From Methanobacteriota archaeon (GTDB lineage: Archaea > Thermoplasmatota > Poseidoniia > Poseidoniales > Thalassarchaeaceae): DNA of 16,034 nt. The notes beneath the pieces were generated by a model. That model ran no database searches and was not told the DNA's origin. It was given only the letters and a program-made list of their open reading frames with translations. Location of the stretch: positions 3,449-19,482 of the forward strand of contig PATZ01000036.1 in assembly GCA_002712575.1 (NCBI GenBank), written 5' to 3'. Shown one piece after another: positions 1,385 to 15,797 of the stretch. The position numbers and the translations under genes were made by a program. Every line of letters begins with the position of its first letter. The first letter of the stretch is position 1.

Positions 1385-1390
1385 CACCTC
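1385..1390 (-). promoter_or_regulatory. Ribosome binding site GAGGTG overlapping the DUF58 stop
   Basis: On the minus strand the sequence reads TGAGGTGTTTTGATG. The Shine-Dalgarno shares bases with the TGA stop of the DUF58 gene and lies five bases before the ATG. It decides the start of the six-helix membrane protein and indicates coupled translation. Confidence 0.75.
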
Positions 1391-2708
1391 AAAATCCTCT
1401 AGCGCCAGTAAGGGCAGTATTAAGCATCATATCTGGTTCCCAATCCATTACGTATGCACCCAATCCTCTTAACTCTGCCATCAAAATATCTCTCTCAGTC
1501 TTAAGGACTTCATATCCAGTCCTATCTAATCTTCTAGCATCAAATTCAAATTCTAAGCTACTAGGAGATAATACTGTAACTTCAAAATTCCTTGATCTTA
1601 AATCTCTAACAGCATCAACTATAGTTGGATCTTCTTCTAGAGGAGATAGTAATATAACCGGACTACCTCTATTAATATGCGGCATTATTCTATTAGTTAC
1701 AATCTTCAATGGAGTGTTTCCTTTTGCCATTGAACCTGCTAATTTAGTTAATAAAACATACAACTGTTTTTTACCGGTGTCTCTATCTACAGAAGTTATT
1801 TCGTCTCCATATAACACTAAACCGACAGAATCCCTTCGAGCTAAAAAATATTGTGAAAGACTTGCTGCAGCTCTTGTGCTATAAACCAAAGAATTCCTAC
1901 TAACTGGCCCTGTTTCGCTAATCTTCCTGCTATCAACTATTATTATAATATCACTAACAGCGTCTTTTTCAAATTCATTTACCATCATTTTTCCATCTTG
2001 CCTAGCAGTAGCTTTCCAATTTACTTTCTTCATTGGATCTCCTGGAATATATTCTCTTAGGTTGTAAAAATTTGAACCTTCTCCTGGATTTCGAATATTA
2101 ACAGCACCAGTGAAAATCTTTGGAACTCTGCTCTTTATCATGGCATCTTTAATATCTTCCATTTTGGGAAAAACAAGGAAATCTTCATACAAATGTATTT
2201 CCTTTTCATTGTGAAATAATCCAAAAGCGTCCTGCACCCTTACACATACTGGGCCAATCGTATAAAATCCCCTCAATGGAGTCTCTATAGTGTAAGAAAT
2301 CTCAGTTTCTCTTTGAGGGCCTAATTCCATCAACACATAATTAGCCCCCTTCTTTATCCTCATTACTTCGGGCACCCTATCTCGAACTTCCAATACTTTA
2401 GAGGTATTTGATCTATTTTGAAGTCTTAAGGATACATCTATTTCGCCATCTTCGAAAATTCTAGAAGAAGAAACTTTGCGCATGGCCAAGATATTTTGTA
2501 ATTCTATTCCTTCATCACTCTGTGCATCATCTATTCTTCTACCTGATGATGAAACATCTGCGTGACTGGTACGAAACGCGGCCCATGTCAAGAAAGAAAG
2601 TAAAACTACTGCAACAGTAACTAATTGTTGATTTCGCAAAACTAAACCTAGGAGATATAGAGCCACCGCTAAAGATGCGAACATCGCGGATTTTCTACTC
2701 CATGCCAT
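1389..2708 (-). CDS. DUF58 domain protein (MoxR-associated)
   Basis: DUF58 proteins are partners of MoxR AAA+ ATPases; their C-terminal half folds like a von Willebrand A domain. This 439-residue protein has two N-terminal membrane segments (about residues 9-24 and 28-46). A beta-rich middle region follows, with the typical TPLRGFYTIGPVCVRVQDAFGLF-like stretch at about 143-165. The DUF58 signature is at about 209-246 (EGSNFYNLREYIPGDP, then VNWKATAR). A hydrophobic strand ends in VDSRKISE at about 258-265, a MIDAS-like position of VWA folds. A GGTGGG ribosome site precedes the ATG. The gene lies 24 bases after the MoxR gene. The membrane segments place the domain at the membrane, probably facing the cytoplasm where MoxR acts; the biological target is unknown. 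Confidence 0.92.
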   Translation of the reverse strand: MAWSRKSAMFASLAVALYLLGLVLRNQQLVTVAVVLLSFLTWAAFRTSHADVSSSGRRIDDAQSDEGIELQNILAMRKVSSSRIFEDGEIDVSLRLQNRSNTSKVLEVRDRVPEVMRIKKGANYVLMELGPQRETEISYTIETPLRGFYTIGPVCVRVQDAFGLFHNEKEIHLYEDFLVFPKMEDIKDAMIKSRVPKIFTGAVNIRNPGEGSNFYNLREYIPGDPMKKVNWKATARQDGKMMVNEFEKDAVSDIIIIVDSRKISETGPVSRNSLVYSTRAAASLSQYFLARRDSVGLVLYGDEITSVDRDTGKKQLYVLLTKLAGSMAKGNTPLKIVTNRIMPHINRGSPVILLSPLEEDPTIVDAVRDLRSRNFEVTVLSPSSLEFEFDARRLDRTGYEVLKTERDILMAELRGLGAYVMDWEPDMMLNTALTGARGF

Positions 2709-2732: not shown

Positions 2733-3788
2733 TCAAACAGTTGGAACTGGAACAGTCCTCAAAATTTCTTTGATTATGTCTTCAGTGTTTACTCCTTTTA
2801 TTTGATGTTCTGGTTTGAGTATTAAACGATGTGCTACTGCTAAATTAGCTATTGATTTTACATCATCGGGAGTAACAAAATCACGTCCCCTCATTGCAGC
2901 AGCCGCACGACTGGTTTTCAACAAAGCTTGTGAACCACGAGGTGATGATCCCACTAGAACTTGATTATGTTCACGTGTTTGAGTGACTATTTCAACCATA
3001 TACATTCTAACTGCAGGATCAACATAAACATCTTCTATTGCTTGCTGCATTGCAACTACCCGCGCTGGATCTGTAATAGTTTCAACCTCAACTGCATCTT
3101 TCTTTCTTGCAATACGTCGTGATAATATTTCATCTTCATCGGAACGGCTAGGATAACCAACACTCATTTTGAACATGAATCTGTCAAGTTGAGCCTCTGG
3201 TAATGGATACGTACCTTCTTGTTCGACTGGGTTCTGTGTAGCCATTGTCAAGAATGGTGCTGGTAATTTATGAGTTACTGTACCAATAGTCACCTGCTTC
3301 TCTTGCATAGCTTCTAAAAGGGCTGCTTGAGTCTTGGGAGGGGCTCTATTGATCTCATCAGACAAAAGGAGATTACAAAATATAGGTCCTGGTTTAAATG
3401 TAAATTCACCTTTCTTAGCGTCATAGATATTTGTTCCTGTAATATCTGCAGGTAGTAAATCTGGAGTGAATTGAACTCTCTTAAAGTCACAACCTAGTGC
3501 ATCAGCGAATGTATTGGTCATCAGAGTTTTTGCTAAACCTGGATAATCTTCGAAGAGAAGGTTTCCGTTGGACAGAATATTAACTAATACGTTATCAATA
3601 ACATGTGATTTACCAATAATTACTTTCTGAACTTCTGAGCCAATTGCTTGAGCAATCGCTCCAACTGCTGTTAACTTTTCATTTGTTTTTGATGAGCCGC
3701 GAGCTTCGGCTGCCTTCTTAGCATAAGCAGCATCTGTGGTATTTGAGGGCGGTGCTGGTGGTGCATCGGTTGGTGGTGTTGCATTCAT
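2733..3788 (-). CDS. MoxR-family AAA+ ATPase
   Basis: A cytoplasmic AAA+ chaperone-like ATPase of the MoxR group, which uses ATP hydrolysis to remodel or activate partner complexes. At 351 residues it is close to family length, with a 45-residue Pro/Ala/Thr-rich N-terminal tail ahead of the core. Visible motifs: a Walker A variant EDYPGLAKT at about 80-88, Walker B LLLSDEIN at about 140-147, sensor-1 ATQNP at about 183-187, and EGTYPLPEAQLDRF at 191-204, typical of MoxR proteins and containing the Arg expected near the subunit interface. SSPRGSQALLKTSRA and FVTPDDVK appear in the lid domain. A GGAGAT ribosome site precedes the ATG. It lies between the DUF4350 and DUF58 genes, as in many archaeal and bacterial MoxR/DUF58 modules. 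Confidence 0.96.
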   Translation of the reverse strand: MNATPPTDAPPAPPSNTTDAAYAKKAAEARGSSKTNEKLTAVGAIAQAIGSEVQKVIIGKSHVIDNVLVNILSNGNLLFEDYPGLAKTLMTNTFADALGCDFKRVQFTPDLLPADITGTNIYDAKKGEFTFKPGPIFCNLLLSDEINRAPPKTQAALLEAMQEKQVTIGTVTHKLPAPFLTMATQNPVEQEGTYPLPEAQLDRFMFKMSVGYPSRSDEDEILSRRIARKKDAVEVETITDPARVVAMQQAIEDVYVDPAVRMYMVEIVTQTREHNQVLVGSSPRGSQALLKTSRAAAAMRGRDFVTPDDVKSIANLAVAHRLILKPEHQIKGVNTEDIIKEILRTVPVPTV

Positions 3789-3806: not shown

Positions 3807-5471
3807 TTAATTTTTCTTACCCCAACGACGAATTGCCTGCATCATCTGGCGTAACTCCTTGGGCGTGTATGTACGGCTTTGGCTATAAGCCAATTCCACA
3901 AGACGTGGATCTCCAATCATTGACTGGACTTCTGCCGGGGGTTTTGTTGCCATTTGATCACGAGACAAATCGTGATGGACTCTGATCTTGGTAAATAGTG
4001 CCTGTTGGACACGTGCCCTATATGTTTTAGGATCTAGCTTCTCGGGTCTTTCGGAAAATCTGGTTAAATCGAAGACGTGGCGCCAATTTTCTTTTTGTGG
4101 AACCACCATCATTGCTACTAATAATAGTAGTCCGACATTTAGAACCACTAACCATTTCAAGAAGGTATTAGAAGTTAACAAAACAATTGTACCCATAGTT
4201 TCAACAAATGGGGCCGAAATTACACCAGTGATATGACGACTTTCATCAAATACTATTTGAAAATTTGATTTATCTCCTGCAAAGTCACCGTTCTTAATTT
4301 TTGCAGATAATTCTGAATTATCAAATTCCATCATATCATAAATCAATGCATTGAAATAATTGCCATTACCTAACCAATCGCTATTGCTATTGATTTCCTG
4401 ATTCCAACAGTTTTCAACGATACATGATTCTCGCAAACCTGTTTTCTTTGCTTCGTCTAAAGTCCATAAACGATTTGAAAATGCTTCTTCATCTGCGACA
4501 AAGGTGATACTTCCAGAAACGGATAATTCACCAACTCCTCCGGAGAGTGTGCTTCCACTACCGCCACTACTCACTTGATCTAACACTGTAATATTATGAT
4601 AATCAAAACGCATAATTAATTTTAGATCCCCAGGTGCTGGATTCAAAGGATCACCAGGATCTCTATTCCCCTGAGTATCAATAAAAGCAGAAGTAGATGC
4701 AGTTCCAAGTGTCATTATTGCCCTATGGTCTGGATCAGTGATATCCCTAGTTGAAGGTTCAAACTTGAGTCCCGTAGGAGCCCTTAACATAACTGGCATA
4801 CGACAATCTATTGGTTTATTGGTACTAAGACTAAATGCGGAACAACCTTGTCTTAATGCGGCTGTAGGCATACTATCAATATCTTGTCCGACAGAAGCAA
4901 CAGTCCACACATTCCTCCATGTTACTATCTGACCACCATTAGCATCTCTTTTGACTTCTCCAGATTCATCGAATTCAACCCAATGTTGATTTTGATCAAG
5001 TAGTCCTCCGACAAATTTGCCTTTATCTTCATCGAATTTATAATCGAAGTAAGTTACTCCAAATTTATTGGATAAAAGATTTGCATTAGAATTATCAGAT
5101 GCAACTATTACTTTTCCTCCTTTTTCGGTGACGAATTTGTATATCTCTTCTGCTTCTGTCTCATCGATTGGTTTTTCTGGTCCAATTATCAACAACATAG
5201 TCCTATGAGGATCTTTCCAATCATTTACCAACATAGGCGTAGACATAGTATTTGCAATGAAATAGTGCTGTTCGTCATCAAGACTGTTGCGCATGTCTGT
5301 TAATTGGGCTAATTGATATATCTCACTATCTCCCGTAGCATATGCAGAATAGGCCGTTTCCTTACCTGCAACGAATAACATTGGTAAAATCAAAAGTAAA
5401 ACTACTGTGACTGTGAGTGAACTGACTACAATAGTCGAGAATCTTTCCTCATCAGTTTTTTCTTCAGTCAT
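3807..5471 (-). CDS. DUF4350-type membrane protein, first gene of the MoxR/DUF58 operon
   Basis: A 554-residue protein with one N-terminal membrane helix (about residues 12-34), a large extracytoplasmic region, a second helix at about 428-457 and a basic cytoplasmic tail of about 95 residues. The region after the first helix has the DUF4350 pattern: TMLLIIGPEKPIDETEAEEI followed by FVTEKGGKVIVAS, a strand-turn-helix ending in a Gly-Gly turn as in GATase-like folds. A Gly/Ser-rich patch (GGVG, SSGGSGS) lies mid-protein. DUF4350 proteins commonly precede MoxR and DUF58; their role is unknown. I chose the ATG at 5471; the frame also has a TTG nine bases earlier, but a weak GAGTTGAT lies between and no ribosome site precedes the TTG. 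The gene could also be leaderless. Eighteen bases separate its stop from the MoxR start. Confidence 0.8.
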   Translation of the reverse strand: MTEEKTDEERFSTIVVSSLTVTVVLLLILPMLFVAGKETAYSAYATGDSEIYQLAQLTDMRNSLDDEQHYFIANTMSTPMLVNDWKDPHRTMLLIIGPEKPIDETEAEEIYKFVTEKGGKVIVASDNSNANLLSNKFGVTYFDYKFDEDKGKFVGGLLDQNQHWVEFDESGEVKRDANGGQIVTWRNVWTVASVGQDIDSMPTAALRQGCSAFSLSTNKPIDCRMPVMLRAPTGLKFEPSTRDITDPDHRAIMTLGTASTSAFIDTQGNRDPGDPLNPAPGDLKLIMRFDYHNITVLDQVSSGGSGSTLSGGVGELSVSGSITFVADEEAFSNRLWTLDEAKKTGLRESCIVENCWNQEINSNSDWLGNGNYFNALIYDMMEFDNSELSAKIKNGDFAGDKSNFQIVFDESRHITGVISAPFVETMGTIVLLTSNTFLKWLVVLNVGLLLLVAMMVVPQKENWRHVFDLTRFSERPEKLDPKTYRARVQQALFTKIRVHHDLSRDQMATKPPAEVQSMIGDPRLVELAYSQSRTYTPKELRQMMQAIRRWGKKN

Positions 5472-5500
5472 CTTAATCAACTCTAATTAAAATAAAATAA

Positions 5501-5644: not shown

Positions 5645-6601
5645 TTATTGAGTGTTATTTCTTCTAGTAAAAACAAGTGCAGTAAGAACGCAAGAAATTA
5701 TTGAAAGTAGGCTTGCTGAGGGCAGGCTTGAGCCAACAACTTCGGTCGTAGTCGTAGTGTCATCTACAGAATCCACAGGCCCTGTATTATCGGATAAAGA
5801 AGGATCAATCGTAATTTGAACTTCATCGATACTAACAGCTGATGAGGCTCCTGTATTCATTGCACCATTGGAGGCTATAGAAACTTCTACCTTACAAGTT
5901 CTCTTTGGATGGCTTTCAGAGGCAGTTAATTCCAGATCTGCTTGAGTCGTTTGACCTGGATTAAGATTCTTAGTCATTAGTGAATCTAGTCCATTATTAG
6001 GAGTCAATAATGGACAATTATCAGAAATATCAACATCTCCGACTCTATCTTCGATATTTCCAATATTTACTACAGAAACTCTCAAGGGAGTCGAAGTACC
6101 TGCATTCATAGGACCAACTGGATCAGTGATTTGTAAGTCTAGAGAATATACTATTGGTATTATCAATTTTCCTTCAGCATCTTTGGAGGAGGGAGATAGT
6201 TGAGGAGTTCCTTGTAATGATACGACTTTTGCAGTTATTAGGAAATCTTCTTGAGTTTTAGCAGCAAAATCGAGAACATTGATATTTGTTACTTCGAGTT
6301 TGAATGATTCATTAGAATTGGCGGCAACTGTAGCATCGGATGGACCAGTGAAAGTACCTTGAAATGGACCTTCAAACTCAAACTCTAAATCCATTGAAAG
6401 AAATCCATTATTAGATATTATAAAAGTTACAGATGCCTTTCCATCATCAGAAATATCAAATGGTTCACTTGAGTCATCATTTTCGAAATCTATTTCAATA
6501 TCCCATGGGTAAATATCTCCTTGGGACTGTACTGAGGGAATAGTATTGAGAAGAAATAAAAAAAATATCATCAAACTGGAGTATTTGATTAAAGCCGACA
6601 T
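5645..6601 (-). CDS. Secreted Ig-like repeat protein with C-terminal anchor/sorting-like tail
   Basis: A 318-residue exported protein of unknown function. Residues 1-27 form a signal peptide (charged start, LMIFFLFLL core, SVQSQ cleavage region). The mature part is acidic and beta-rich, with two domains resembling CARDB or other Ig-like folds. Domain 1 includes ASVTFIISNNGFLSMDLEFEF, domain 2 PVGPMNAGTSTPLRVSVVNIGN. Near the end come an Asp/Thr-rich linker (DDTTTTTE), a hydrophobic helix (SLLSIISCVLTALVF) and a TRR tail. That layout is typical of archaeal surface proteins that are membrane-anchored or processed by an archaeosortase. I set the start at 6601: a frame-compatible ATG at 6631 lies inside the FAD gene, while GGAGAT sits five bases before 6601. 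One base separates it from the FAD-gene stop, so it is translated with the molybdenum hydroxylase. Confidence 0.82.
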   Translation of the reverse strand: MSALIKYSSLMIFFLFLLNTIPSVQSQGDIYPWDIEIDFENDDSSEPFDISDDGKASVTFIISNNGFLSMDLEFEFEGPFQGTFTGPSDATVAANSNESFKLEVTNINVLDFAAKTQEDFLITAKVVSLQGTPQLSPSSKDAEGKLIIPIVYSLDLQITDPVGPMNAGTSTPLRVSVVNIGNIEDRVGDVDISDNCPLLTPNNGLDSLMTKNLNPGQTTQADLELTASESHPKRTCKVEVSIASNGAMNTGASSAVSIDEVQITIDPSLSDNTGPVDSVDDTTTTTEVVGSSLPSASLLSIISCVLTALVFTRRNNTQ

Positions 6602-6602
6602 G

Positions 6603-7583
6603 TTATATCTCCAATAAGCCCTTGCTTGCACGTCTAGATAAAACTTTGACCATTTTTCTCCTGTAAGAGGGTTGAAACCAAGTATTCAAAACTGGTTTTA
6701 CAGATTTTCTAATTGATTCTGCTAACTCTTCTATACTATCACTTCCAGACCATGATTTTATTATTTTCTGAGATTCTTCAGAGTGGAAACGTGGTATTGA
6801 TTCTATTCCCGTAGTTGCAACACGAAGGTCGGAAGGACCTTTGTCTCCTTTCTTCCATAAAACTGCTACTCCTGCTTCTGGAAAATCCCAAGAGTCGCGT
6901 TGCGTAAGTTTTTGATAGTCCCCTTCCCATTCAAAAACATCATCTGGAAAGGTAATATGTGTTACTAATTCATCTTCCATTAGAATATTTTTTGTAATGC
7001 CATCTAATTTAAAAAAATCTTTGATTAATACTGAGCGATTACCTGTGGGCGATGCTAAGTAAATAGTTGCACCAAGACCCATTAATACAGGAGCCATATC
7101 AGCTTGATATGTCGCCACACAGAGAGTATTTTGGTTTGGAATCACTCTGCAATCGGCACCCGTACCGCAATCACATTTATGGCAATAATCAATAGATTCT
7201 CTCCATTCTTCTGATTGATTAAACCAAAAACAACGTGTATCTAGACATATATTACCTCCCAAAGTTGCTGAACGCCTAATCATAACACTAGCGACTAGAC
7301 TAGCAGATTTTGCAATTAAAGGATGAATCTCGGATGATTGTGAAATATCATAAAGTCTAGCCATGGCACCAATATGATTTTTAGAGATCTTATGTAAATC
7401 TTCTATTTTTGATAATGAAATAACATCAGATTTAGTATTAATATGCCATTTATAATTGGGTATTAAATCTGTCCCTCCTGCAATCCAATCATACTCTAAG
7501 TTCTGTCTCCTGAGTTCTTTCACGATCTCGAATGCTTCATCTAATGATGAGGGTGTGTGTAATTTGAATGGAGGCATTTTCAT
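6603..7583 (-). CDS. Molybdenum hydroxylase FAD subunit with 4-hydroxybenzoyl-CoA-reductase-like [4Fe-4S] loop
   Basis: Medium (beta) FAD-binding subunit of a xanthine-oxidase-family enzyme; it passes electrons between the iron-sulfur subunit and an external partner. At 326 residues it has normal length. FAD-binding motifs are AGGTDL at 35-40 and SATLGGN at 105-111. From 112 to 160 there is a Cys-rich insertion: Cys113, 118, 134, 137, 139, 145 and 155, within CLDTRCFWFNQSEEWR and CHKCDCGTGADCR. Ordinary xanthine or CO dehydrogenase FAD subunits lack it. The beta subunit of 4-hydroxybenzoyl-CoA reductase has such a loop with four Cys holding a [4Fe-4S] cluster. Cys118, 134, 145 and 155 are the likely ligands; 137 and 139 are extra. 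The start ATG at 7583 follows the large-subunit stop by two bases and has an AGGAATGAT ribosome site. Confidence 0.93.
   Translation of the reverse strand: MKMPPFKLHTPSSLDEAFEIVKELRRQNLEYDWIAGGTDLIPNYKWHINTKSDVISLSKIEDLHKISKNHIGAMARLYDISQSSEIHPLIAKSASLVASVMIRRSATLGGNICLDTRCFWFNQSEEWRESIDYCHKCDCGTGADCRVIPNQNTLCVATYQADMAPVLMGLGATIYLASPTGNRSVLIKDFFKLDGITKNILMEDELVTHITFPDDVFEWEGDYQKLTQRDSWDFPEAGVAVLWKKGDKGPSDLRVATTGIESIPRFHSEESQKIIKSWSGSDSIEELAESIRKSVKPVLNTWFQPSYRRKMVKVLSRRASKGLLEI
6607..6612 (-). promoter_or_regulatory. Ribosome binding site GGAGAT deciding the secreted-protein start
   Basis: The minus strand reads GGAGATATAACATG. The site lies inside the last codons of the FAD-subunit gene, five bases before the ATG at 6601. 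It selects this ATG over the earlier in-frame one at 6631, which would also put non-signal residues in front of the signal peptide. Confidence 0.75.
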
Positions 7584-7585
7584 AA

Positions 7586-10357
7586 TTAATCATTCCTTTT
7601 TCTTCTTTCTACGTGCCTCCAGGCACTTCCTGCTAATCTAGGATTAGCGAGATATTGATCATCAGGAATGACACGTATTTCCCATCTAGAATCTTGTTCA
7701 TCTCCCGGTATTTCTGGATTCATACCGAATAATGCACCATTGTGATATGGGGTTTTTTCTTCCGATAAAATCCTTTGTAAGTCTCTTTCAGAGTGTTGAG
7801 ACGCCCTACTTTCCAATAGTGTTTGTAAATCGGAATGAATTAGGGAAGGATTAGGTAATTTGAGAGGGTTAGATATTTTTAGATTTCTACATTTCTTCTC
7901 TATCTCTTTGTATAATCTATCGCCTGTTATAGGCAATTCATTTACTCTTATTCCGGATGCGTCATAAACAGCATTACAAACCGCAGGAAGTATTGGCAGC
8001 AAAGGACCTTCTCCTGCCTCTTTAGCACCGAAAGGCCCTTCCAAATCGTTGGATTCAACTATTATTGGATTTACCTTTGGCATTTCATGGATACTTGGTA
8101 TTTTGTAATCTAATAAATCTGGATTTAGTAAGTCTCCCCCCCGGCTGTATTTCATTTCTTCACTAAGTACTTGTCCCAGACCCATATGACAAGAGCCTAT
8201 TATCTGCCCCTTAACAGACAGAGGATTTAGGGCTTTTCCGCAATCATGTGCTGCCCAGACTTCAAGAACTTTAGTTTGTCCAGTTTCCATATCCACTTTT
8301 ACTTCAGCGACATAAGCAGAAAAAGAGTAAGCAGGCGCTAATCCTGCAGCAGCTCCTTTGTGTGCCCTACCCATAGGAGGAGTACGATATGAGCCTGAAG
8401 AAGTAAGTGCCCCTCTATCTTCTTGGGCTTTATGTAAAGCTTCAAGATATGAAACTCCTATTGCAGGATCTTGTTTATCAAAAATTCTCCTATCTCCAAT
8501 GACAAGTTTCTTAATTTCAGTGTCTGTTATGATGGAGGCTGCCTTGAGAAGGTCTTTCCTTATTTCCAGTGCTGCAGAAATTGCTGCATTAGCATTCATG
8601 AATGTAACTCGTGAAGAATAAGATCCTAAATCTACAGGAGATGTATCAGTTTCCCTACTTCTTACACGTATCATATCCAAAGGTAGCCCAAGAACTTCGG
8701 CAACAGATTGAGCAACAACTGTGTCGGAGCCTTGTCCTATATCTGCAGCACCTGTGTGGATTGTAACGCCTCCATCCATATCGATTTTCAAATGGACAGT
8801 TGCATGTGGAAATTTATTGGGATCCCAATGAATTGGTAGACCACTGCCAGATATGAAAAATCCACAACCTATGCCAATACCGTGCCCTAATGGTAATTGG
8901 CGAAATTTTTTATCCCAATCTGATGCTATTTTGACCTTTTCTAAACATTCCCTCATACCAATACTAGTTATTCTAAATCCAGTAATTGTTGCAGAAAAAG
9001 GAGGTAGTAGATTGGCTAAACGAAGTGTAATTGGATCTACAGATAATTGCTCAGCAATATCATCTAGCCCCACTTCAACAGCACATCTAGAATTTACAGC
9101 CCCATGACCTCTCATAGCACCACTTGCAGGTTTATTTGTCCAAACTCTAGCACCCGTATAATGGAAGGCTCCTAATTCATATGGCGCAGTATGTAAGACT
9201 CCATTGTAATAAGTAGTTACATGACCAAAGGATGCAAAAGCTCCTCCATCGATCAAAGCATCGGTTTGAACACCACATAGACGGCCAGCAGAATCTGCAT
9301 GTATGTCCATTTCGATTCTAGAAGGATGCCTTCCTCTATTTACCCAAAATACTTCTTCTCTATCAAAGGTAATTCTTACTGGCCTTCCTGATTTTCTAGC
9401 TAATATAGCAGCACACATTTCATGAGGGAATGGATCGGATTTACCTCCGAAACCACCACCTACGAAAGTTCGGTAAACATTAATTTGATGCATTGGGATT
9501 TCTAAGACATCTGCCAATGCACGGTGAACGTAATGAGGCACTTGTTGAGGAGTATATAATGTCAATCTACCAGATGGATCCCAATCAGCAACAACAGCAT
9601 GAGGTTCTGTGAAACCATGATTAACTCCAGCAAATAACCAATTCGATTTATGATTTGCCACAGAGTTAGGAATCATTTCACCAATATTGCCAAATTCCTG
9701 AAAGACTCTTTTTTGTACATTTGATTCTCCGATGTGATATTGTCCTCTATCATGTATTGGATATTTAGAATCATCCAACCCTTTACGCATATCATGAATA
9801 CTATCTAAAACCTCATATTCAACTTCAATTAACCTGACTGCTTCTAAGGCTGTACTTTCATCAATAGCTGCAACACAAGCAACCAAATCTCCTTTATGAC
9901 GAGTTTTTTCAATTGCCATTGCATGTTCGTCTTTGGTCACTGGTAAAACTCCAAATGAATTTTGAGCATCTGCACCAGTTGCTATTGCTATGACACCTTC
10001 TAACTCTATGGCTTTACTAATATCAATCGAAAGTACACGCGCATAATGATGTGGAGAACGAACGATTTTGCCAATTAATTCATTACTTAACCTTATATCA
10101 TCTCCATAATTAGCCTTTCCAGTAACTTTCCATTTACTATCTACGAGTGCAGTGGACTTACCTATGGAAATTCCACTAATTAGTTCATCATGCCTATGGC
10201 CGCCCCTAGGTTGGAGTTTTTTACCACCTTGACTTTCGGGTATTAATTGGATATTGCGTAATTCACTGAATTGATTTTTACCGCCAGAGCCAGGTCTTGA
10301 GAAAGGCAACTTACCCGGTTGTTGTCTGTAGCCAACCATTTCATCATCATTAGACAT
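7586..10357 (-). CDS. Molybdopterin-binding large subunit, 4-hydroxybenzoyl-CoA-reductase-like
   Basis: Catalytic (alpha) subunit of a xanthine-oxidase-family hydroxylase; it holds the molybdenum cofactor and substrate. In the 923-residue product the substrate-pocket half begins near residue 67 (KVTGKANYGDDI at 77-88). Cofactor motifs follow: VGGGFGGK 299-306, SGAMRGHG 412-419, GAADIGQGSDT 536-546, GSYSSRVTF 578-586 and GPFGAKEAGEG 774-784, whose Glu783 matches the conserved base of the family. SGAMRGHG and GPFGAKEA match 4-hydroxybenzoyl-CoA reductase alpha as I remember it; the CO dehydrogenase AYRCSFR loop is absent. There are about 66 extra residues at the N-terminus and about 100 at the C-terminus, against a usual 760-780. 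I chose the ATG at 10357 (GGTGG four bases before) over one at 10420 inside the preceding gene. The physiological substrate is not determinable here. Confidence 0.94.
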   Translation of the reverse strand: MSNDDEMVGYRQQPGKLPFSRPGSGGKNQFSELRNIQLIPESQGGKKLQPRGGHRHDELISGISIGKSTALVDSKWKVTGKANYGDDIRLSNELIGKIVRSPHHYARVLSIDISKAIELEGVIAIATGADAQNSFGVLPVTKDEHAMAIEKTRHKGDLVACVAAIDESTALEAVRLIEVEYEVLDSIHDMRKGLDDSKYPIHDRGQYHIGESNVQKRVFQEFGNIGEMIPNSVANHKSNWLFAGVNHGFTEPHAVVADWDPSGRLTLYTPQQVPHYVHRALADVLEIPMHQINVYRTFVGGGFGGKSDPFPHEMCAAILARKSGRPVRITFDREEVFWVNRGRHPSRIEMDIHADSAGRLCGVQTDALIDGGAFASFGHVTTYYNGVLHTAPYELGAFHYTGARVWTNKPASGAMRGHGAVNSRCAVEVGLDDIAEQLSVDPITLRLANLLPPFSATITGFRITSIGMRECLEKVKIASDWDKKFRQLPLGHGIGIGCGFFISGSGLPIHWDPNKFPHATVHLKIDMDGGVTIHTGAADIGQGSDTVVAQSVAEVLGLPLDMIRVRSRETDTSPVDLGSYSSRVTFMNANAAISAALEIRKDLLKAASIITDTEIKKLVIGDRRIFDKQDPAIGVSYLEALHKAQEDRGALTSSGSYRTPPMGRAHKGAAAGLAPAYSFSAYVAEVKVDMETGQTKVLEVWAAHDCGKALNPLSVKGQIIGSCHMGLGQVLSEEMKYSRGGDLLNPDLLDYKIPSIHEMPKVNPIIVESNDLEGPFGAKEAGEGPLLPILPAVCNAVYDASGIRVNELPITGDRLYKEIEKKCRNLKISNPLKLPNPSLIHSDLQTLLESRASQHSERDLQRILSEEKTPYHNGALFGMNPEIPGDEQDSRWEIRVIPDDQYLANPRLAGSAWRHVERRKRND

Positions 10358-10361
10358 AAAA

Positions 10362-10367
10362 CCACCT
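10362..10367 (-). promoter_or_regulatory. Ribosome binding site AGGTGG deciding the large-subunit start
   Basis: The minus strand reads TAAAGGTGGTTTTATG: the small-subunit stop TAA directly precedes the Shine-Dalgarno, which lies four bases before the ATG at 10357. It rules out the longer reading from 10420, which would overlap the [2Fe-2S] subunit gene by 53 bases. Confidence 0.8.
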
Positions 10368-10934
10368 TTAATTATTGAATCCGGGATGAGGGTCACTTTT
10401 TGGAGAAGTTGAGTCTTCAATTTTTACATTATTTACCATTATTTCTGAAGCTGCTTTTACAGAATCAATGATTTGTTGATAACCGGTACACCTACACAGA
10501 TTTCCTTCTATAGCTGTTTTTATTTCCTGATCGTTTGGATTGTTATTTTCATTCAATAATGCTGAAATTACTACTAAAAATCCTGGTGTACAAAAACCGC
10601 ACTGACTTCCTCCGTACTCTGCAAAAGTTTCCTGAATTGGATGAAGATGGTGTCCCAAAGATAGACCCTCGACTGTAGTTATTTCAGAACCTTCAACTTC
10701 CTTGGCCATAGTTAAACATGATAATTTTGGTATGCCGTCGACTAAAACTGTACAACAGCCACATGTACCTAAATCGCATCCCCTCTTTGTCCCAAGGCTT
10801 CCTCCTTTATTTCTTAAAACATCTAATAAAATAGAATTACTTGCTATCGTAGTTGAAAAATCAACATTATTTATCCTTGATGTCCAAGATACTTCATCCG
10901 AGGAAGGAATCATTGGAAGCCTAAATCGTGACAT
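10368..10934 (-). CDS. [2Fe-2S] small subunit of the molybdenum hydroxylase
   Basis: Gamma subunit carrying two [2Fe-2S] clusters that wire the molybdenum centre to the FAD subunit. Residues 20-90 form a plant-ferredoxin-like domain with Cys53, Cys58, Cys61 and Cys73 (in GCDLGTCGCCTVLVDG and SCLTM). Residues 105-165 form the all-helical second domain with CGFCTPG (Cys112, Cys115) and LCRCTGY (Cys147, Cys149). All eight ligands are present. At 188 residues it is slightly longer than the usual 155-170, from about 18 extra N-terminal residues and a Pro/Ser tail. The ATG at 10934 lies five bases after the regulator stop; no strong ribosome site is seen, so coupling to the regulator gene is likely. 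Gene order small-large-medium differs from the medium-small-large order of many CO dehydrogenase operons. Confidence 0.96.
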   Translation of the reverse strand: MSRFRLPMIPSSDEVSWTSRINNVDFSTTIASNSILLDVLRNKGGSLGTKRGCDLGTCGCCTVLVDGIPKLSCLTMAKEVEGSEITTVEGLSLGHHLHPIQETFAEYGGSQCGFCTPGFLVVISALLNENNNPNDQEIKTAIEGNLCRCTGYQQIIDSVKAASEIMVNNVKIEDSTSPKSDPHPGFNN

Positions 10935-10939
10935 ATATG

Positions 10940-11647
10940 TTAATTCCCATCTATCATAGTTCTTTGAGTATTTGGTTTTAAATTATCATTTTGTGTCTTT
11001 AGATCCTCAATAGCTTTACGTAAAATCGTTGATTCTGCTCTTTGAATATGTTCTCCAAGAGTACTCCTAGCCATACCAAGTTCGTCGGCCAAATCTTTTA
11101 GAGTAGTTTTAGATTCTGTGCCATAATAGCCCCTGTAAGCAGCATAAGAAATTATTTCTTTTTGCCTACTTGTTAATTCATCCGTCCAGCCATTTCCGAT
11201 ATCTCCTTTTATTGATTGGACACTGATTTTGTCAGGAGGCATCAATTCTCTTACTACTGAAACAAACTTCCTTACTGAATCAGAAATTCCAGATATTCGT
11301 AATTCCATGCCCATTTCTGAGCACAATTTATACGGAGTTTGTAAATGAATATTTGCCATTTCTATTCCCATAATTGCTAATGGATGTGTGCATAGTAAAC
11401 TAACTAAAATACCATCTTCATCTTCTTCATATTTGTCAATAACTTCGAAATATGCTAGTTTTGAAATATCTTCAAGAGAGGCGTTTTGACGTAATTTTAT
11501 TTCGCATAATTGAGTTATTCCTCTATTTGTAACTGAAAGATGGCCAAGAATTTCAATGCTATGAACAAGACTGATAATTTGAGAAATTTCATCTGAACCA
11601 TGAAGTGAATTAATGTTCCACCTTATGGAGACCTTACGCATATACAT
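10940..11647 (-). CDS. HTH_10 (bacterio-opsin activator type) transcriptional regulator
   Basis: A 235-residue DNA-binding regulator. The C-terminal HTH_10 domain at about 157-212 shows the family pattern LTSRQKEIISYAAYRGYY, then LKDLADELGMARSTLGEHIQRAE, the recognition helix region. HTH_10 proteins are essentially archaeal. The N-terminal 150 residues resemble the alpha/beta sensor part seen in small Bat-like regulators and contain an acidic turn (KYEEDEDG, 72-79) and Cys48, 86 and 109. The ligand is unknown. Two starts are possible, ATG 11647 and ATG 11641; neither has a Shine-Dalgarno, so it may be leaderless with its own weak promoter in the 35-base gap behind the protease gene. It lies five bases before the [2Fe-2S] subunit gene and is the obvious candidate to control the hydroxylase; that is inferred from position. 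Confidence 0.9.
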   Translation of the reverse strand: MYMRKVSIRWNINSLHGSDEISQIISLVHSIEILGHLSVTNRGITQLCEIKLRQNASLEDISKLAYFEVIDKYEEDEDGILVSLLCTHPLAIMGIEMANIHLQTPYKLCSEMGMELRISGISDSVRKFVSVVRELMPPDKISVQSIKGDIGNGWTDELTSRQKEIISYAAYRGYYGTESKTTLKDLADELGMARSTLGEHIQRAESTILRKAIEDLKTQNDNLKPNTQRTMIDGN

Positions 11648-11682: not shown

Positions 11683-12903
11683 TTATGACCAGTAAGACTC
11701 ACGGATAGCCTGATTAGTTTGCATACATAGAACTACATCGGATGGCCTATTAGGAATTTCAGCGGTTCCATTAAGATGTTCGATGATCGGTAAAACATTG
11801 CTCTCATTCACGACACCCCAACCAACTTGTGTACAAGGAGCAATGGGGGATATAGGAGTTGTACCCGAGAGAGGATCCCATGACGAAAATGAAGGATACC
11901 ACGCTGAAAGATTAAGGGCATCTCTTAAATCATCATTTGAAAATTTTATTTCAGAACCATTGATTATGTTTTTATCTCTTTTTTCTGGATTTGCACCAGA
12001 TGAGAAATCACCAAATTCATGCCTTAAACTAGTGATTATTTTTGAAAGTAACCCGGCAGTTCTCGGAGTTGCGAATGATGTCCCAGAAGTTTCATGATAA
12101 CCATCCACATCATCATGATTCGGTAGTATTTGTGTCCAATCCGCTGCTACATCGGGATATGAGCCGCTCATAGTTTCTTTCTGATCATCTCCTTCTTCGG
12201 CATAACCAGAAATACCAATACTCCAAGGAGGTCCGGCTGTCGAATCTTGTACTGCTGGAGAGGGAGAATTATCTGCAGCACCTGTGTGTATTTTCCCTTT
12301 TTCAACAACTGCGACTTTTGTTGCATCTTCGATTCCTGGAACTGGAATTGAACCTATTGGACCAAAACTAGTAGTAATTATATCAACAAGTGGTTGGTTT
12401 GCTGCTGCCAAAACGGCAGCGTCACTAAAACCTTCTACAAAGAATATTACAGCATTGGGATTAGCATTCAATACTGCTCCTGTAACTGCAGTACCGTGAC
12501 CATCTTGAGGGTCATCTAGAATTGGAATGTCTGTATTATCGTCGGGAGTTGTACCAATTATCCTTGTACCTTTGAACCAAACAATATCTGTGGAGACAAT
12601 TGTATCCCAACAGGATTCTCTATCTGAAGAATATCTTTCTTCCCATGACCCATTTTTAGTTATATCACATACTTTAGTCACTCCCAACCCATTCAATAGC
12701 CATTGAGGATAGTCTTCTTCCATAACAAAATGATCATGATAGACATTTATGCCAGTGTCTATTGGCGCAACTACACTAAAAGCCCCAAAATCATCTGATG
12801 AAGAATTATCTTGAATACTAGATATTGTTGCATTACCAAAACAACCACCAAAGGAAGATAGTAAAAGTATCGTTAAAGTGGAAAAAACGAAATTTCTTGC
12901 CAT
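11683..12903 (-). CDS. Subtilisin-like serine protease (S8), probable lipoprotein
   Basis: An exported 406-residue protease. Residues 1-20 are a signal sequence ending FGGC, a lipobox-like site with Cys21 as probable lipid anchor. The full S8 triad is present: Asp49 in APIDTGIN, His136 in DGHGTAVTG and Ser276 in SGTSFATP; Asn212 in GAADNS is the oxyanion-hole residue. The catalytic domain runs from about 42 to 375. An insertion of about 60 residues lies between the Asp and His motifs, with Cys79 and Cys98; Cys357 and Cys393 could pair near the C-terminus. No propeptide of classical size is visible, since the Asp motif starts 28 residues after Cys21. The start ATG has a GGAGAA site. It sits between xdhC and the regulator, 15 bases after xdhC, an unusual place for a protease. 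Confidence 0.93.
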   Translation of the reverse strand: MARNFVFSTLTILLLSSFGGCFGNATISSIQDNSSSDDFGAFSVVAPIDTGINVYHDHFVMEEDYPQWLLNGLGVTKVCDITKNGSWEERYSSDRESCWDTIVSTDIVWFKGTRIIGTTPDDNTDIPILDDPQDGHGTAVTGAVLNANPNAVIFFVEGFSDAAVLAAANQPLVDIITTSFGPIGSIPVPGIEDATKVAVVEKGKIHTGAADNSPSPAVQDSTAGPPWSIGISGYAEEGDDQKETMSGSYPDVAADWTQILPNHDDVDGYHETSGTSFATPRTAGLLSKIITSLRHEFGDFSSGANPEKRDKNIINGSEIKFSNDDLRDALNLSAWYPSFSSWDPLSGTTPISPIAPCTQVGWGVVNESNVLPIIEHLNGTAEIPNRPSDVVLCMQTNQAIRESYWS

Positions 12904-12918
12904 TTTTTATTTCTCCAT

Positions 12919-13767
12919 TTATTTCTTTTCTAAAGATTGTTGTGCATCTAGAGATATTATCTCAGCGCAAATAGCGATTGCGATTTCTTCTGGGGTGTGT
13001 GCACCTATGGGTAAACCAATAGGACATCTAGTCGAGTCGACAATAGCAACTGGAATATTTGCATCTAATGCTGCTTTCCTAAATGCCGACCATTTAGTCT
13101 TAGAGCCTATGCAACCAACCCTCGGCCTTTGATTTGAATCGATTTTGGATAAAATACCAATTAAAATTTCCTGGTCTAGACTCCAATCATGACCTAATAG
13201 GAAAATATCTGAGAATCTAGAGAATGATTTTTGATTTTCTGAATCCAGAAATTCGGAAACAGAAGAGGTGTATATTTCTTCGGCATTCGGAAATCTTTCT
13301 TTATTCGAGAATTCCTCTCGAACATCGAAAATACTGTAAGTCCAGCCTATCGAATCACAAACAAATGCCAATGATTTTCCAACATGTCCTCCTCCAATAA
13401 TTAAAACATTAGGAGAAGTATTTATTACTTCCAAAGACACTGTCAACTGACCTCCACAAAGACTGTCCAAGGCAGTTACTTCTTTGCCTTTTCCATCCTT
13501 ATATAGTAAAAAATTCTCTATTCTTCCTCCCTGTAAAGACATTCTATATGGGCTTTTAATTAATTCATAAAGTGCTTCCTCGATTTTTAGTTCTAATCCA
13601 GCCCCTCCGATTGTACCGAATTTTTCACCGTTTTTTATCATGGCTAATTTAGCACCTGGTTTGCCTGGTATACTTCCTTTTGAATCGATTACAGTAGCCA
13701 AGGCTACATCGTAACCTTCTGCTAGCTTTTCTAAAATCCAAGAATGGACTCTACGAGTCATGCACAT
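12919..13767 (-). CDS. xdhC: XdhC/CoxI-family molybdenum hydroxylase maturation protein
   Basis: XdhC proteins bind molybdenum cofactor and deliver it, usually in sulfurated form, to xanthine-oxidase-family enzymes. The 282-residue protein has the two usual domains. The N-terminal XdhC_CoxI domain (about 7-115) contains GSIPGKPGAKL (31-41), GTIGGAGLE (51-59) and a Cys-Gly-Gly (104-106). The C-terminal Rossmann domain (about 119-270) contains VLIIGGGHVGKSLA (121-134), IGSKTK (220-225) and PIGLPIGAHTPEEIA (249-263). The start is ATG 13767 or ATG 13761; neither has a good ribosome site, and an AAATATA block at 13781-13787 could be a TATA box for a leaderless message beginning near the second ATG. 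It is the first gene of the hydroxylase cluster and so supports co-transcription of cofactor insertion with the enzyme. Confidence 0.94.
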   Translation of the reverse strand: MCMTRRVHSWILEKLAEGYDVALATVIDSKGSIPGKPGAKLAMIKNGEKFGTIGGAGLELKIEEALYELIKSPYRMSLQGGRIENFLLYKDGKGKEVTALDSLCGGQLTVSLEVINTSPNVLIIGGGHVGKSLAFVCDSIGWTYSIFDVREEFSNKERFPNAEEIYTSSVSEFLDSENQKSFSRFSDIFLLGHDWSLDQEILIGILSKIDSNQRPRVGCIGSKTKWSAFRKAALDANIPVAIVDSTRCPIGLPIGAHTPEEIAIAICAEIISLDAQQSLEKK

Positions 13768-13988: not shown

Positions 13989-15197
13989 ATGGTTAGTTTT
14001 AATGAAATTATTGAGATAATTGTTGTTAGCATGCGTGACGCTTTTCTTGCAGTCACTGTTTTTGTTGCTGCAATGGTTTTGTTTTTTAGTTGGTTACAGT
14101 ATATTACTGCAGGAAGATTTGTCGATACAATTCGATCAAATACTAGATGGCAGCCAATAATTGGCGCACTCATGGGCATAACGCCAGGGTGTGGTGGAGC
14201 TATTGTAATGATGCCTATGTATGCGCGTGGTTATGTTACTTATGGCACTGTAATAGCAACACTGATTGCAACATTAGGAGATGCAGCATTTGTATTAATT
14301 GGTGCAGCAGTTACTGATTCATCATTTATACTACCTGTTATTGCTGTACATCTAATATCATTATTTGTTGGAATTTTTTGGGGATATCTTGTTGATATCT
14401 TGAAAATTACTCCTCGTAATCCCTTAGGGAAATTTAGTCTGAATTTTCGAGACGATTTGGTATTAGAGGTTCTTGTTGATGGAAAAAATCAAGACTCTAG
14501 AGAGGTATTCGAAGATCTAGGAAGAGAAGAAGAAAATGGTTGGAGATACATCCTTCTTCACAAAGGATATACTGTTTGGTGGATCATAACCACTCTAGGA
14601 CTAATATTCGCAATTATGTTGTTGTTTTGGAGTGCCCAAGATGCAAATTTCGCACTAGAAATAGATTATAATCCATTGACTTTACATGGGTTTATTACTT
14701 GGATAGGTTTGATTGGAACTTCCTTATCCATTATTCTTTATATTTCACAGAAAAATTGGATCGGTGATGATACAGAAGCATCTATCGGCGATAAATTATA
14801 TTCAATGCGTGAAACACTGATTCATTCTGCGAGTGAAACTGCATTCGTTACATTTTGGGTGATGTCTGCATATCTAATTTTTGAATTTTCCATGTTATTT
14901 TCAGATATGGATCAGACTGAACTAGCATCATATGGAGATGGTTTGATTGCAGTAATTATTGCATCATTAATTGGATTAATACCCGGTTGTGGCCCTCAAA
15001 TAATTGCTGTAACAGCATATACAAAGGATGCCATCTCATTTCCGGCACTTGTAGCAAATGCCATCAGTCAAGATGGAGATGCGCTTTTCCCATTGCTAGC
15101 AAGACATCGATTAGCGAGTCTATGGGCAACTGTTCACACCACTATCCCTGCCTTAATTGTCGGTGTTGGGTTGATGTTGTTTGATATTAGCTTCTAA
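13989..15197 (+). CDS. Putative manganese/metal transporter (DUF2899/ArsP_2-like)
   Basis: An integral membrane protein of 402 residues with about ten membrane segments in two homologous halves joined by a polar loop (about 140-190). Each half holds the same motif: ITPGCGGAIV (64-73) followed by a GDAAF (98-101) block, and LIPGCGPQII (330-339) followed by QDGDALFPL (361-369). The PGCG pair, probably meeting in the middle of the membrane, is the hallmark of the family annotated as putative manganese transporter. The true substrate in archaea is not established. GGAG lies eight bases before the ATG. It is transcribed away from the molybdenum cluster and its last 45 bases overlap the convergent nucleotidyltransferase gene. 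A link to manganese, or to an oxyanion such as molybdate or arsenite, cannot be decided from sequence. Confidence 0.85.
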   Translation: MVSFNEIIEIIVVSMRDAFLAVTVFVAAMVLFFSWLQYITAGRFVDTIRSNTRWQPIIGALMGITPGCGGAIVMMPMYARGYVTYGTVIATLIATLGDAAFVLIGAAVTDSSFILPVIAVHLISLFVGIFWGYLVDILKITPRNPLGKFSLNFRDDLVLEVLVDGKNQDSREVFEDLGREEENGWRYILLHKGYTVWWIITTLGLIFAIMLLFWSAQDANFALEIDYNPLTLHGFITWIGLIGTSLSIILYISQKNWIGDDTEASIGDKLYSMRETLIHSASETAFVTFWVMSAYLIFEFSMLFSDMDQTELASYGDGLIAVIIASLIGLIPGCGPQIIAVTAYTKDAISFPALVANAISQDGDALFPLLARHRLASLWATVHTTIPALIVGVGLMLFDISF

Positions 15198-15797
15198 ATT
15201 GCCCTCATTTTCTAAAGAAGAGATGAATTGGATAAGGATTGGAATGTCTTTTTCTGTATCTACATTAAGATGTAAATAATCATCCATTACTTCAAATTTT
15301 TTTGGCTTTATTATATCTCGTAAAGGTGTTGAAGGATTTTGATTTAGGATTTTTTTAACATCTAATTTTGATAACAATAAAGGATGTCCTCCTTTACCAT
15401 CTTTTTCAGGACAAGCAGTGTAATCCAAGGATATTAATTTTGATAGTGTTGAAGAAGAAAATCCTGGCCTGTCAACTGGGACCACTAAGGCTTTGAACTC
15501 ATTCGAATGATTTTCAAGAATAAAATTTAGGCCAACTTGAAGTGAACCCGTCCTGCCGGATTCAGGATTGTTGTTAGATATAATTTCTACATCTCCTGTA
15601 TGGTTTTTTATTTCAGAGATTAATTCTTCCCTAGTTACAATTATAATCGTGGTATTATGATTTTTGAGTCTTTTAACTAAAAAATTAATTAAAATATCAT
15701 TATTTATTTTTAATAATGATTTGGGTTTACCCAATCTCCGACTTTTACCAGCAGCCAGTATGACTGAAAAAAGTGTTTTATCCCCTGAAAATGACAT
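15153..15797 (-). CDS. MobA/MocA-like molybdenum-cofactor nucleotidyltransferase
   Basis: A 214-residue NTP transferase. MocA adds CMP to molybdopterin to form the cytosine dinucleotide used by many xanthine-oxidase-family enzymes; MobA adds GMP. Visible motifs: the nucleotide loop LAAGKSRRLGKPK (14-26), GRTGSLQ (81-87), a metal-binding VDRPGF (108-113), GGHPLLL (136-142), usual in MocA-type enzymes, and NVDTEKD (178-184) where the family has an acidic pair. Nearby xdhC and hydroxylase genes favour the MocA role, but cytidylyl versus guanylyl specificity is inferred, and other small-molecule nucleotidyltransferases share the fold. AGGTGAT lies three bases before the ATG. The last 15 codons overlap the end of the convergent transporter gene. 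It is 21 bases downstream of the exchanger gene, on the same strand. Confidence 0.85.
   Translation of the reverse strand: MSFSGDKTLFSVILAAGKSRRLGKPKSLLKINNDILINFLVKRLKNHNTTIIIVTREELISEIKNHTGDVEIISNNNPESGRTGSLQVGLNFILENHSNEFKALVVPVDRPGFSSSTLSKLISLDYTACPEKDGKGGHPLLLSKLDVKKILNQNPSTPLRDIIKPKKFEVMDDYLHLNVDTEKDIPILIQFISSLENEGNLEANIKQHQPNTDN

Follow-up and report, generated by a model that had tools for sequence, protein, structure and literature searches.

Gene organization of the HBCR-like enzyme

The window analysed here is a 16,034-bp stretch of an archaeal genome of the family Thalassarchaeaceae, order Poseidoniales (Marine Group II, MGII), taken from positions 3,449 to 19,482 of contig PATZ01000036.1 (genome piece G000:C31:3449-19482; the genome is 1.59 Mb in size and 83.7% complete). 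Its minus strand carries the genes of a three-subunit molybdenum enzyme related to 4-hydroxybenzoyl-CoA reductase (HBCR). A sequence-only reading had proposed such an enzyme, with three complete subunits, in a planktonic archaeon, and had pointed to the large-subunit motifs SGAMRGHG, GSYSSRVTF and GPFGAKEA. In agreement with that reading, all three motifs were found in alpha, the three genes were complete and tightly packed, with spacers of 10 bp (gamma-alpha) and 2 bp (alpha-beta), and the nearest named relatives were Candidatus Thalassarchaeaceae and Marine Group II. The subunits and their features are as follows.

10368..10934, minus strand: gamma subunit with two [2Fe-2S] clusters, 188 aa (Fer2_2 and Fer2)
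7586..10357, minus strand: alpha, the molybdenum cofactor (Moco) subunit, 923 aa, with N- and C-terminal extensions kept in MGII (TIGR03194, PDB 1rm6_A, trees, AlphaFold2 model)
10178..10357, minus strand: N-terminal extension of alpha, about 60 aa, conserved in MGII, no Pfam match, predicted local distance difference test (pLDDT) values mostly low
8009..8011, minus strand: putative catalytic Glu783 of alpha, E in 128/128 MGII rows
7586..7882, minus strand: C-terminal extension of alpha, about residues 826-923 (~100 aa), conserved in MGII, no Pfam match, predicted to be folded
6603..7583, minus strand: beta, the flavin adenine dinucleotide (FAD) subunit, 326 aa (TIGR03195, PDB 1rm6_B)
7119..7247, minus strand: Cys-rich [4Fe-4S] loop of beta, residues 113-155 (alignment with HcrB)

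For alpha we adopted the MGII-conserved ATG at 10357, while the listed open reading frame (ORF) began at a TTG at 10420. Glu783 occupies the position of HcrA Glu726 and is presumably catalytic. The C-terminal extension contains the motif PRLAG.AW.H.ERR.

Family placement and conserved residues

HBCR was the top NCBIfam family of both the molybdenum and the FAD subunit. Alpha scored 796.4 bits with TIGR03194 (cut-off 994.55) and beta 221.5 bits with TIGR03195 (cut-off 404.55). Gamma reached 166.2 bits with TIGR03193 (cut-off 257.8), 6 bits less than its top model glyceraldDH_gamma (172.4 bits, also below cut-off). Because all subunits score below the HBCR cut-offs, we speak of a family member rather than of HBCR proper; as a control, the HcrB model matched 3 of 14 known genomes, none of them over the cut-off. 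For alpha, the XdhA models came next after HBCR (517 and 514 bits), with PaoC and other aldehyde models far below. The top PDB sequence matches of alpha and beta were the HBCR chains 1rm6_A (E 3.9e-185) and 1rm6_B (E 1.2e-40), and 1rm6 was also the best structural match of the AlphaFold2 model of alpha (pLDDT 76.9). In this model, block pLDDT means of 73-96 over residues 831-910 predict a folded C-terminal extension. In VIA-align, where the extensions were barely covered, aldehyde oxidase came within 1 Z of HBCR, so the fold comparison adds little and does not by itself decide between the two. The own genome has a single PF02738 gene. Among existing labels, JGI automatic naming gives 'HBCR subunit' for many MGII homologues and NCBI gives 'aldehyde oxidase' for some.

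We then placed alpha in trees of 65 (of 88) and 39 rows, with 21 rows in an approximately unbiased (AU) test; neither locus L112 (5 stops) nor one Sinorhizobium row (1 stop) entered the trees or the conservation groups. In the 65-row tree, MGII formed one clade (SH-aLRT 100), with family f15, which belongs to the same phylum, as sister (93) and f6 next (98), the whole nested in a clade that also holds Planctomycetota, KSB1 and others. In the second tree, which included solved CoxL and quinoline oxidoreductase sequences, the HBCR side, HcrA included, was split off from the xanthine, CO, quinoline and aldehyde enzymes with 100/99 and the MGII alphas again formed their own clade (100/100), as the sequence-only reading had thought plausible. 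Grouping with xanthine or CO dehydrogenases, named beforehand as refuting the HBCR-like call, was not observed, and an MGII plus xanthine dehydrogenase clade was rejected (p-AU 3.25e-5). HcrA did not appear as direct sister of MGII in the trees, yet this arrangement was not rejected (p-AU 0.105; long branch).

The conservation counts drew on the best 120 of 7443 alpha and the best 120 of 3307 FAD database matches and is not a random sample. HBCR-typical alpha residues were invariant in the 128 MGII rows. Bovine xanthine oxidase Glu802, which we take to be the purine-binding Glu and mapped through its 35-residue spacing from Q767, was replaced by Ser in 128/128 MGII alphas. Where CO dehydrogenase 8uem has VAYACSFR, presumably the CoxL active-site Cys loop, alpha has GAMRGHG, so that loop is not present. 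At the level of sequence, the active-site pattern is of the HBCR type rather than the xanthine dehydrogenase type.

The Cys-rich loop of the FAD subunit, already likened to that of HBCR, indeed aligned with HcrB, so the second outcome named beforehand as refuting was not seen either: C118, C134, C145 and C155 of beta correspond to C122, C138, C146 and C155, which we take to be the [4Fe-4S] ligands. All four were kept in 151/151 MGII FAD subunits and 42/42 other rows (the L040 FAD row entered no loop-cysteine count). Two extra cysteines occur in the MGII loop, C137 (149/151) and C139 (150/151), the latter in a three-residue insertion missing from the 42 other rows. Such a [4Fe-4S] loop is a mark of the inverted electron flow of HBCR. 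Taken together, trees, AU test and loop alignment bear out the HBCR-like family call; by sequence, this is a xanthine oxidase (XO)-type trimer in which Mo, the [2Fe-2S] clusters and FAD each have their own subunit and the FAD subunit bears the HBCR [4Fe-4S] loop, while identity as HBCR itself would go beyond sequence.

Distribution, neighbourhood and a BoxB-like counterpart

The HBCR-like enzyme is a core gene of the order Poseidoniales. Alpha was found in 190/193 genomes, in all 34 with at least 90% completeness and in 21/21 genera of two families (f1 and f2, taken as Thalassarchaeaceae and Poseidoniaceae); the three genomes without it were 70-80% complete. Identity to the window protein was 68-82% among the listed rows of other genera. 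In a draw of genomes across the phylum, which shares genomes with this order-wide search, the FAD model matched 124/127 MGII genomes.

The surroundings are also conserved. A minus-strand run of xdhC, subtilase-like, HTH_10, gamma, alpha, beta and anchored-protein genes is spaced by 2 to 35 bp, the final pair overlapping. The neighbours are as follows.

15153..15797, minus strand: MocA/MobA-like nucleotidyltransferase (PF12804; TIGR03310 79.5 bits, below cut-off 186.45)
12919..13767, minus strand: XdhC-type Moco maturation chaperone (PF13478 and PF02625)
11683..12903, minus strand: subtilase-like gene
10940..11647, minus strand: HTH_10 regulator, 5 bp upstream of gamma (PF04967)
5645..6631, minus strand: anchored/secreted-protein gene, overlapping the end of beta (choice_anch_T 40.9 bits, below cut-off 70)
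3807..5480, minus strand: DUF4350 gene (below Pfam cut-off)
2733..3788, minus strand: MoxR AAA ATPase
1389..2708, minus strand: DUF58 gene

Gamma-alpha-beta followed by DUF4350, MoxR, DUF58 and a fourth gene was seen in 15/15 fetched MGII regions (in L027, MoxR is in two pieces) and, as far as the stretches reach, in 24 MGII loci of named assemblies, two of which have an extra small ORF. BLAST detected the anchored-protein gene in 14/15 MGII regions, while the MoxR-DUF58 block had no BLAST match in four f6/f15 regions. This block is reminiscent of CoxD/CoxE-like maturation factors, and a role in maturation is speculation. XdhC was present in 16/16 other genomes tested, on the alpha contig and within 14 kb in 14/15 MGII genomes. 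The MocA/MobA-like protein probably acts on the nucleotide of the Mo cofactor. Between it and xdhC lies a plus-strand gene (13989-15197) for an ArsP_2-type 10-transmembrane heavy-metal/arsenic exporter, which passed the NCBIfam arsenic_eff cut-off; at the window edge, the C-terminal part of chorismate synthase (PF01264, 3-446) is convergent with the MoxR-DUF58-DUF4350 block.

The idea that the HBCR-like enzyme is the sole Moco user was rejected. PF00384 occurred in 33/36 genomes (34 MGII genomes at least 90% complete, the own genome and the MGIII-like genome G195); the own-genome protein (L057:1112-3418, contig G000:C5) belongs to the FdhF/YdeP family (851.9 bits, passing the NCBIfam cut-off). 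The sulfite-oxidase family was found in 0/36 of these genomes.

As the sequence-only reading stated, no CoA ligase, benzoyl-CoA reductase or ring-opening gene was present among the annotated window genes (CoA ligases were not searched genome-wide). Among the relatives elsewhere, homologues of BcrB, BcrC, Oah or Had with at least 40% identity accompanied the HBCR-like genes in 20/50 bacterial loci, one of them (L076) counted on a BcrB-like match alone; the remaining 30 had none of these genes, many of the stretches being short. Representatives of Oah, Had and BcrC passed the NCBIfam cut-offs, while the BcrB one failed and is closer to 2-hydroxyacyl-CoA dehydratase. Near the MGII enzyme, such homologues were found in 0/24 loci. 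A search confined to the HGD-D/BcrBC family, and so not extending to class II (BamB-type) reductases, found it in 0/35 MGII genomes, the own genome included, and in 18 of the 28 other Thermoplasmatota, G195 aside, whose FAD subunit gave a strong match. In the same phylum, bcrABCD has been reported in Ca. Yaplasmales (PMC9239135). By sequence, the MGII enzyme is thus kin to enzymes that are accompanied by benzoyl-CoA-reductase-family genes in numerous bacteria and, judged from co-occurrence, also elsewhere among the Thermoplasmatota.

Two further loci are worth recording. One of seven MGIII-like genomes in the phylum draw, G195, had an HBCR-like FAD match. On its contig C5 (L061, L062, L053), a stretch of about 44 kb with 38-52% GC lies between DNA of 62-73% GC and carries four HGD-D genes, an Oah gene (passing the cut-off), an acyl-CoA-synthetase-like gene and the HBCR-like genes, and its alpha groups inside Marinimicrobia in the 65-row tree. 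The GC contrast and this placement suggest a transferred island or a chimeric or mis-assembled contig, not an ancestor, and we rejected this class relative as source of the MGII enzyme. On a Sulfitobacter plasmid (L151:2539-6766), an XO-family large subunit adjoins a gene annotated as 6-hydroxynicotinate reductase.

A second, putatively ring-attacking enzyme was found in the same archaea, in the own genome on another contig. The PaaA/BoxB family PF05138 was present in 37/37 genomes (35 MGII and 2 of f15; controls 4/14), and a BoxB-like protein in 113/127 MGII genomes of the phylum draw, the 14 misses all being less than 90% complete. Two MGII proteins scored 216 and 229 bits as BoxB versus 36 and 46 bits as PaaA, and the MGII protein matched PDB 3per with E 2.9e-55. 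Each of the six iron ligands was kept in 23/23 loci (19 MGII, 4 others), as were Q116, T119, S123, F193 and F203, and F206 was F or Y (residue roles from PMC5489048). The sequences thus describe a predicted BoxB-like di-iron protein with most benzoyl-CoA-binding residues.

Its gene is adjoined in 22/23 loci each by genes for a ~190-aa protein and a 3-hydroxyacyl-CoA dehydrogenase, and mostly by a crotonase and an FAD protein. The ~190-aa protein (L158:8977-9573), without Pfam or NCBIfam match, is possibly a partner subunit. In 32/35 genomes the best BoxC match lay on the same contig, within 15 kb, although 0/37 genomes passed the BoxC equivalog TIGR03222 cut-off (BoxC controls matched in 8/14). 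Both MoaC and MoaE occurred in the BoxB-like region in 14/19 MGII loci. An aldehyde dehydrogenase near the operon was dismissed as a specific partner, being generic. Near the own-genome operon there is also a Rieske ring-hydroxylating-type oxygenase gene (L158:6715-7773; PF00848, PF00355), with BLAST matches in few other loci.

A candidate pathway for aromatic acyl-CoAs

What is new is that an HBCR lineage spread over the whole order comes without BcrBC and shares its genomes with a BoxB-like oxygenase; it is this last combination that surprises. An HBCR-derived enzyme and an O2-using ring-attacking enzyme in the same archaea suggest that these may run an unrecognised aromatic pathway, not the published xanthine breakdown. 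Our preferred reading, to which we give a little less than an even chance, is a (de)hydroxylase of aromatic acyl-CoAs that is coupled to ferredoxin and supplies an O2-dependent Box-type pathway. XdhC and the MocA-like protein would mature the Mo cofactor. Electrons would move among ferredoxin, the [4Fe-4S] loop, FAD, the two [2Fe-2S] clusters and the Mo site, the loop trading them with ferredoxin. The substrate may be a phenolic (hydroxybenzoyl-type) acyl-CoA losing its ring hydroxyl reductively; the BoxB-like enzyme would then use O2 to epoxidise the product, and the BoxC-like crotonase and the 3-hydroxyacyl-CoA dehydrogenase encoded close by would break it down. An anaerobic-type entry step would thereby be joined to aerobic Box-type ring attack. 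The cofactor set follows from the conserved ligands, while ferredoxin, direction and substrate are suggested by likeness to HBCR. We hold it as possible, though rather doubtful, that the core metabolism of MGII in oxic surface water includes a hybrid aromatic pathway not described before, in which the BoxB-like enzyme replaced benzoyl-CoA reductase during descent.

Several observations weigh against this pathway. For HBCR, BoxB and BoxC alike, all proteins stayed below the NCBIfam equivalog cut-offs (the own-genome protein on contig G000:C6 scored 216.2 bits with the BoxB model TIGR03225, cut-off 499.1), BoxB T210 was replaced by V or I in 23/23 loci, and the BoxC-like crotonase has about half the BoxC length. 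The two loci are unlinked, lying on separate contigs in the own genome and about 1.17 Mb apart in the single-contig genome G002. A number of alpha positions are fixed in MGII, not in bacterial, f6 or f15 relatives (P270, Q271, H379, W406, N588, H666 and I720 among others); PQQ replaces A/T-TQ before the apical Gln, and H379, W406 and N588 likewise lie near the Mo site, therefore the substrate may have shifted. Outside MGII, strong BoxB-like matches, defined as at least 150 bits with the limit fixed after the scores were seen, occurred in 8 genomes: G205, G226, G231 and G352 have the HBCR-like enzyme and no HGD-D, while G193, G213, G246 and G256, the four that count against the pathway, lack an HBCR-like FAD match. 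None of the 18 genomes with both HBCR-like and HGD-D genes had a strong match, with a Fisher p of 0.01 that disregards phylogeny; the HGD-D family also takes in 2-hydroxyacyl-CoA dehydratases. Six f6 genomes without HGD-D showed just weak BoxB/PaaA-like matches, and 1/14 control genomes had a BoxB-like match.

The direction may be the opposite, as the sequence-only reading had allowed along with another substrate. Hydroxylation is the usual reaction of XO-family enzymes, and the same family member could oxidatively hydroxylate the ring of an aromatic or heteroaromatic CoA thioester with water-derived oxygen, electrons leaving to ferredoxin. This is a less probable but serious alternative: it fits the absence of the BcrBC family from the MGII genomes searched, the fixed changes near the Mo site and the description of MGII from surface water (PMC6461757), but the [4Fe-4S] loop and the HBCR active-site positions are fully kept, and many bacterial relatives lie among reductive benzoyl-CoA genes. 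We consider it unlikely that the enzyme is derived for a non-CoA substrate such as a free phenolic ester or aldehyde, unrelated to benzoyl-CoA metabolism, with the BoxB-like protein serving something else. The kept HBCR positions, the low scores of PaoC and aldehyde models and the benzoyl-CoA-binding residues of the BoxB-like protein argue against it, whereas the unlinked loci, the four genomes with BoxB-like and no HBCR-like enzyme, and the name 'aldehyde oxidase' given by NCBI to four MGII clusters among the matches listed speak for it, as does Ucdh, an HBCR relative at 32.7% identity that dehydroxylates free urolithin C (PMC12771579).

Damashek et al. (2021; PMC9723583) read xdhC and yagS of Thalassarchaeaceae as a xanthine dehydrogenase and suggested purine catabolism; we infer that these are the genes of the present locus. 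XdhC does occur here, the xanthine/uracil permease of Thalassarchaeaceae is highly transcribed according to the same text, and XdhA models follow HBCR in score. However, the xanthine dehydrogenase grouping was rejected, Ser stands at the purine-binding Glu position, the HBCR model reaches 796 bits, and XdhC serves XO-family enzymes generally. A xanthine dehydrogenase is therefore very improbable, and the published reading is probably wrong. Even less credit goes to an ordinary anaerobic HBCR feeding benzoyl-CoA reductase: the trees would suit it, but the search, confined to the HGD-D/BcrBC family, found none in 35/35 MGII genomes, unlike in 18/28 of the other Thermoplasmatota.

Among the planktonic archaea of surface waters, Poseidoniales are described as the most abundant, with no cultured representatives; Rinke et al. 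describe Moco synthesis as a core trait and name nitrate reductase, in three metagenome-assembled genomes (PMC6461757). The HBCR-like enzyme gives this core Moco synthesis an order-wide client, and together with the equally widespread BoxB-like oxygenase it points to aromatic acyl-CoAs as core substrate. BoxB is listed with highly expressed MG-II genes (PMC5069720), and Poseidoniales are counted among archaea with enzymes from catechol to tricarboxylic acid cycle intermediates (PMC9535955). Our literature search, with most subscription journals outside its reach, found no paper that mentions hydroxybenzoyl together with Poseidoniales or Marine Group II. The findings argue against the xanthine dehydrogenase reading, and two expressible enzymes allow testing without culture.

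Compared with known systems, the MGII enzyme shares three subunits, the [4Fe-4S] loop in the FAD subunit and the active-site pattern with HcrABC of Thauera aromatica (PDB 1rm6). It differs in being 43% identical over the large subunit and below the NCBIfam cut-offs, in having GGGFGGKSDPF for GGGFGARTEAL and PQQ for TTQ, in its alpha extensions, and in a genome without the BcrBC family. Ucdh of Enterocloster bolteae is likewise an HBCR-related XO-family phenol dehydroxylase; its medium subunit is described with FAD only and its substrate is a free phenol, no CoA thioester (PMC12771579). In 23/23 loci the BoxB-like protein shares with BoxB of Azoarcus evansii (PDB 3per, 3pm5) the six iron ligands and, of the seven residues listed for the substrate side, all except T210 (V/I) and F206 (F/Y), but it is 380-416 aa long versus 481, scores below the TIGR03225 cut-off, and comes with a half-length BoxC-like crotonase. 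Relative to the HBCR-like enzymes of Marinimicrobia, Bacteroidota and other Thermoplasmatota, MGII stands apart in its separate clade, in having no Bcr/Oah/Had genes nearby and in adjoining the MoxR-DUF58 block; it resembles them in alpha (48-56% identity to the window protein, five sampled), in the loop cysteines (42/42), and in the XdhC and MocA neighbours, each present in 16/56 of their loci.

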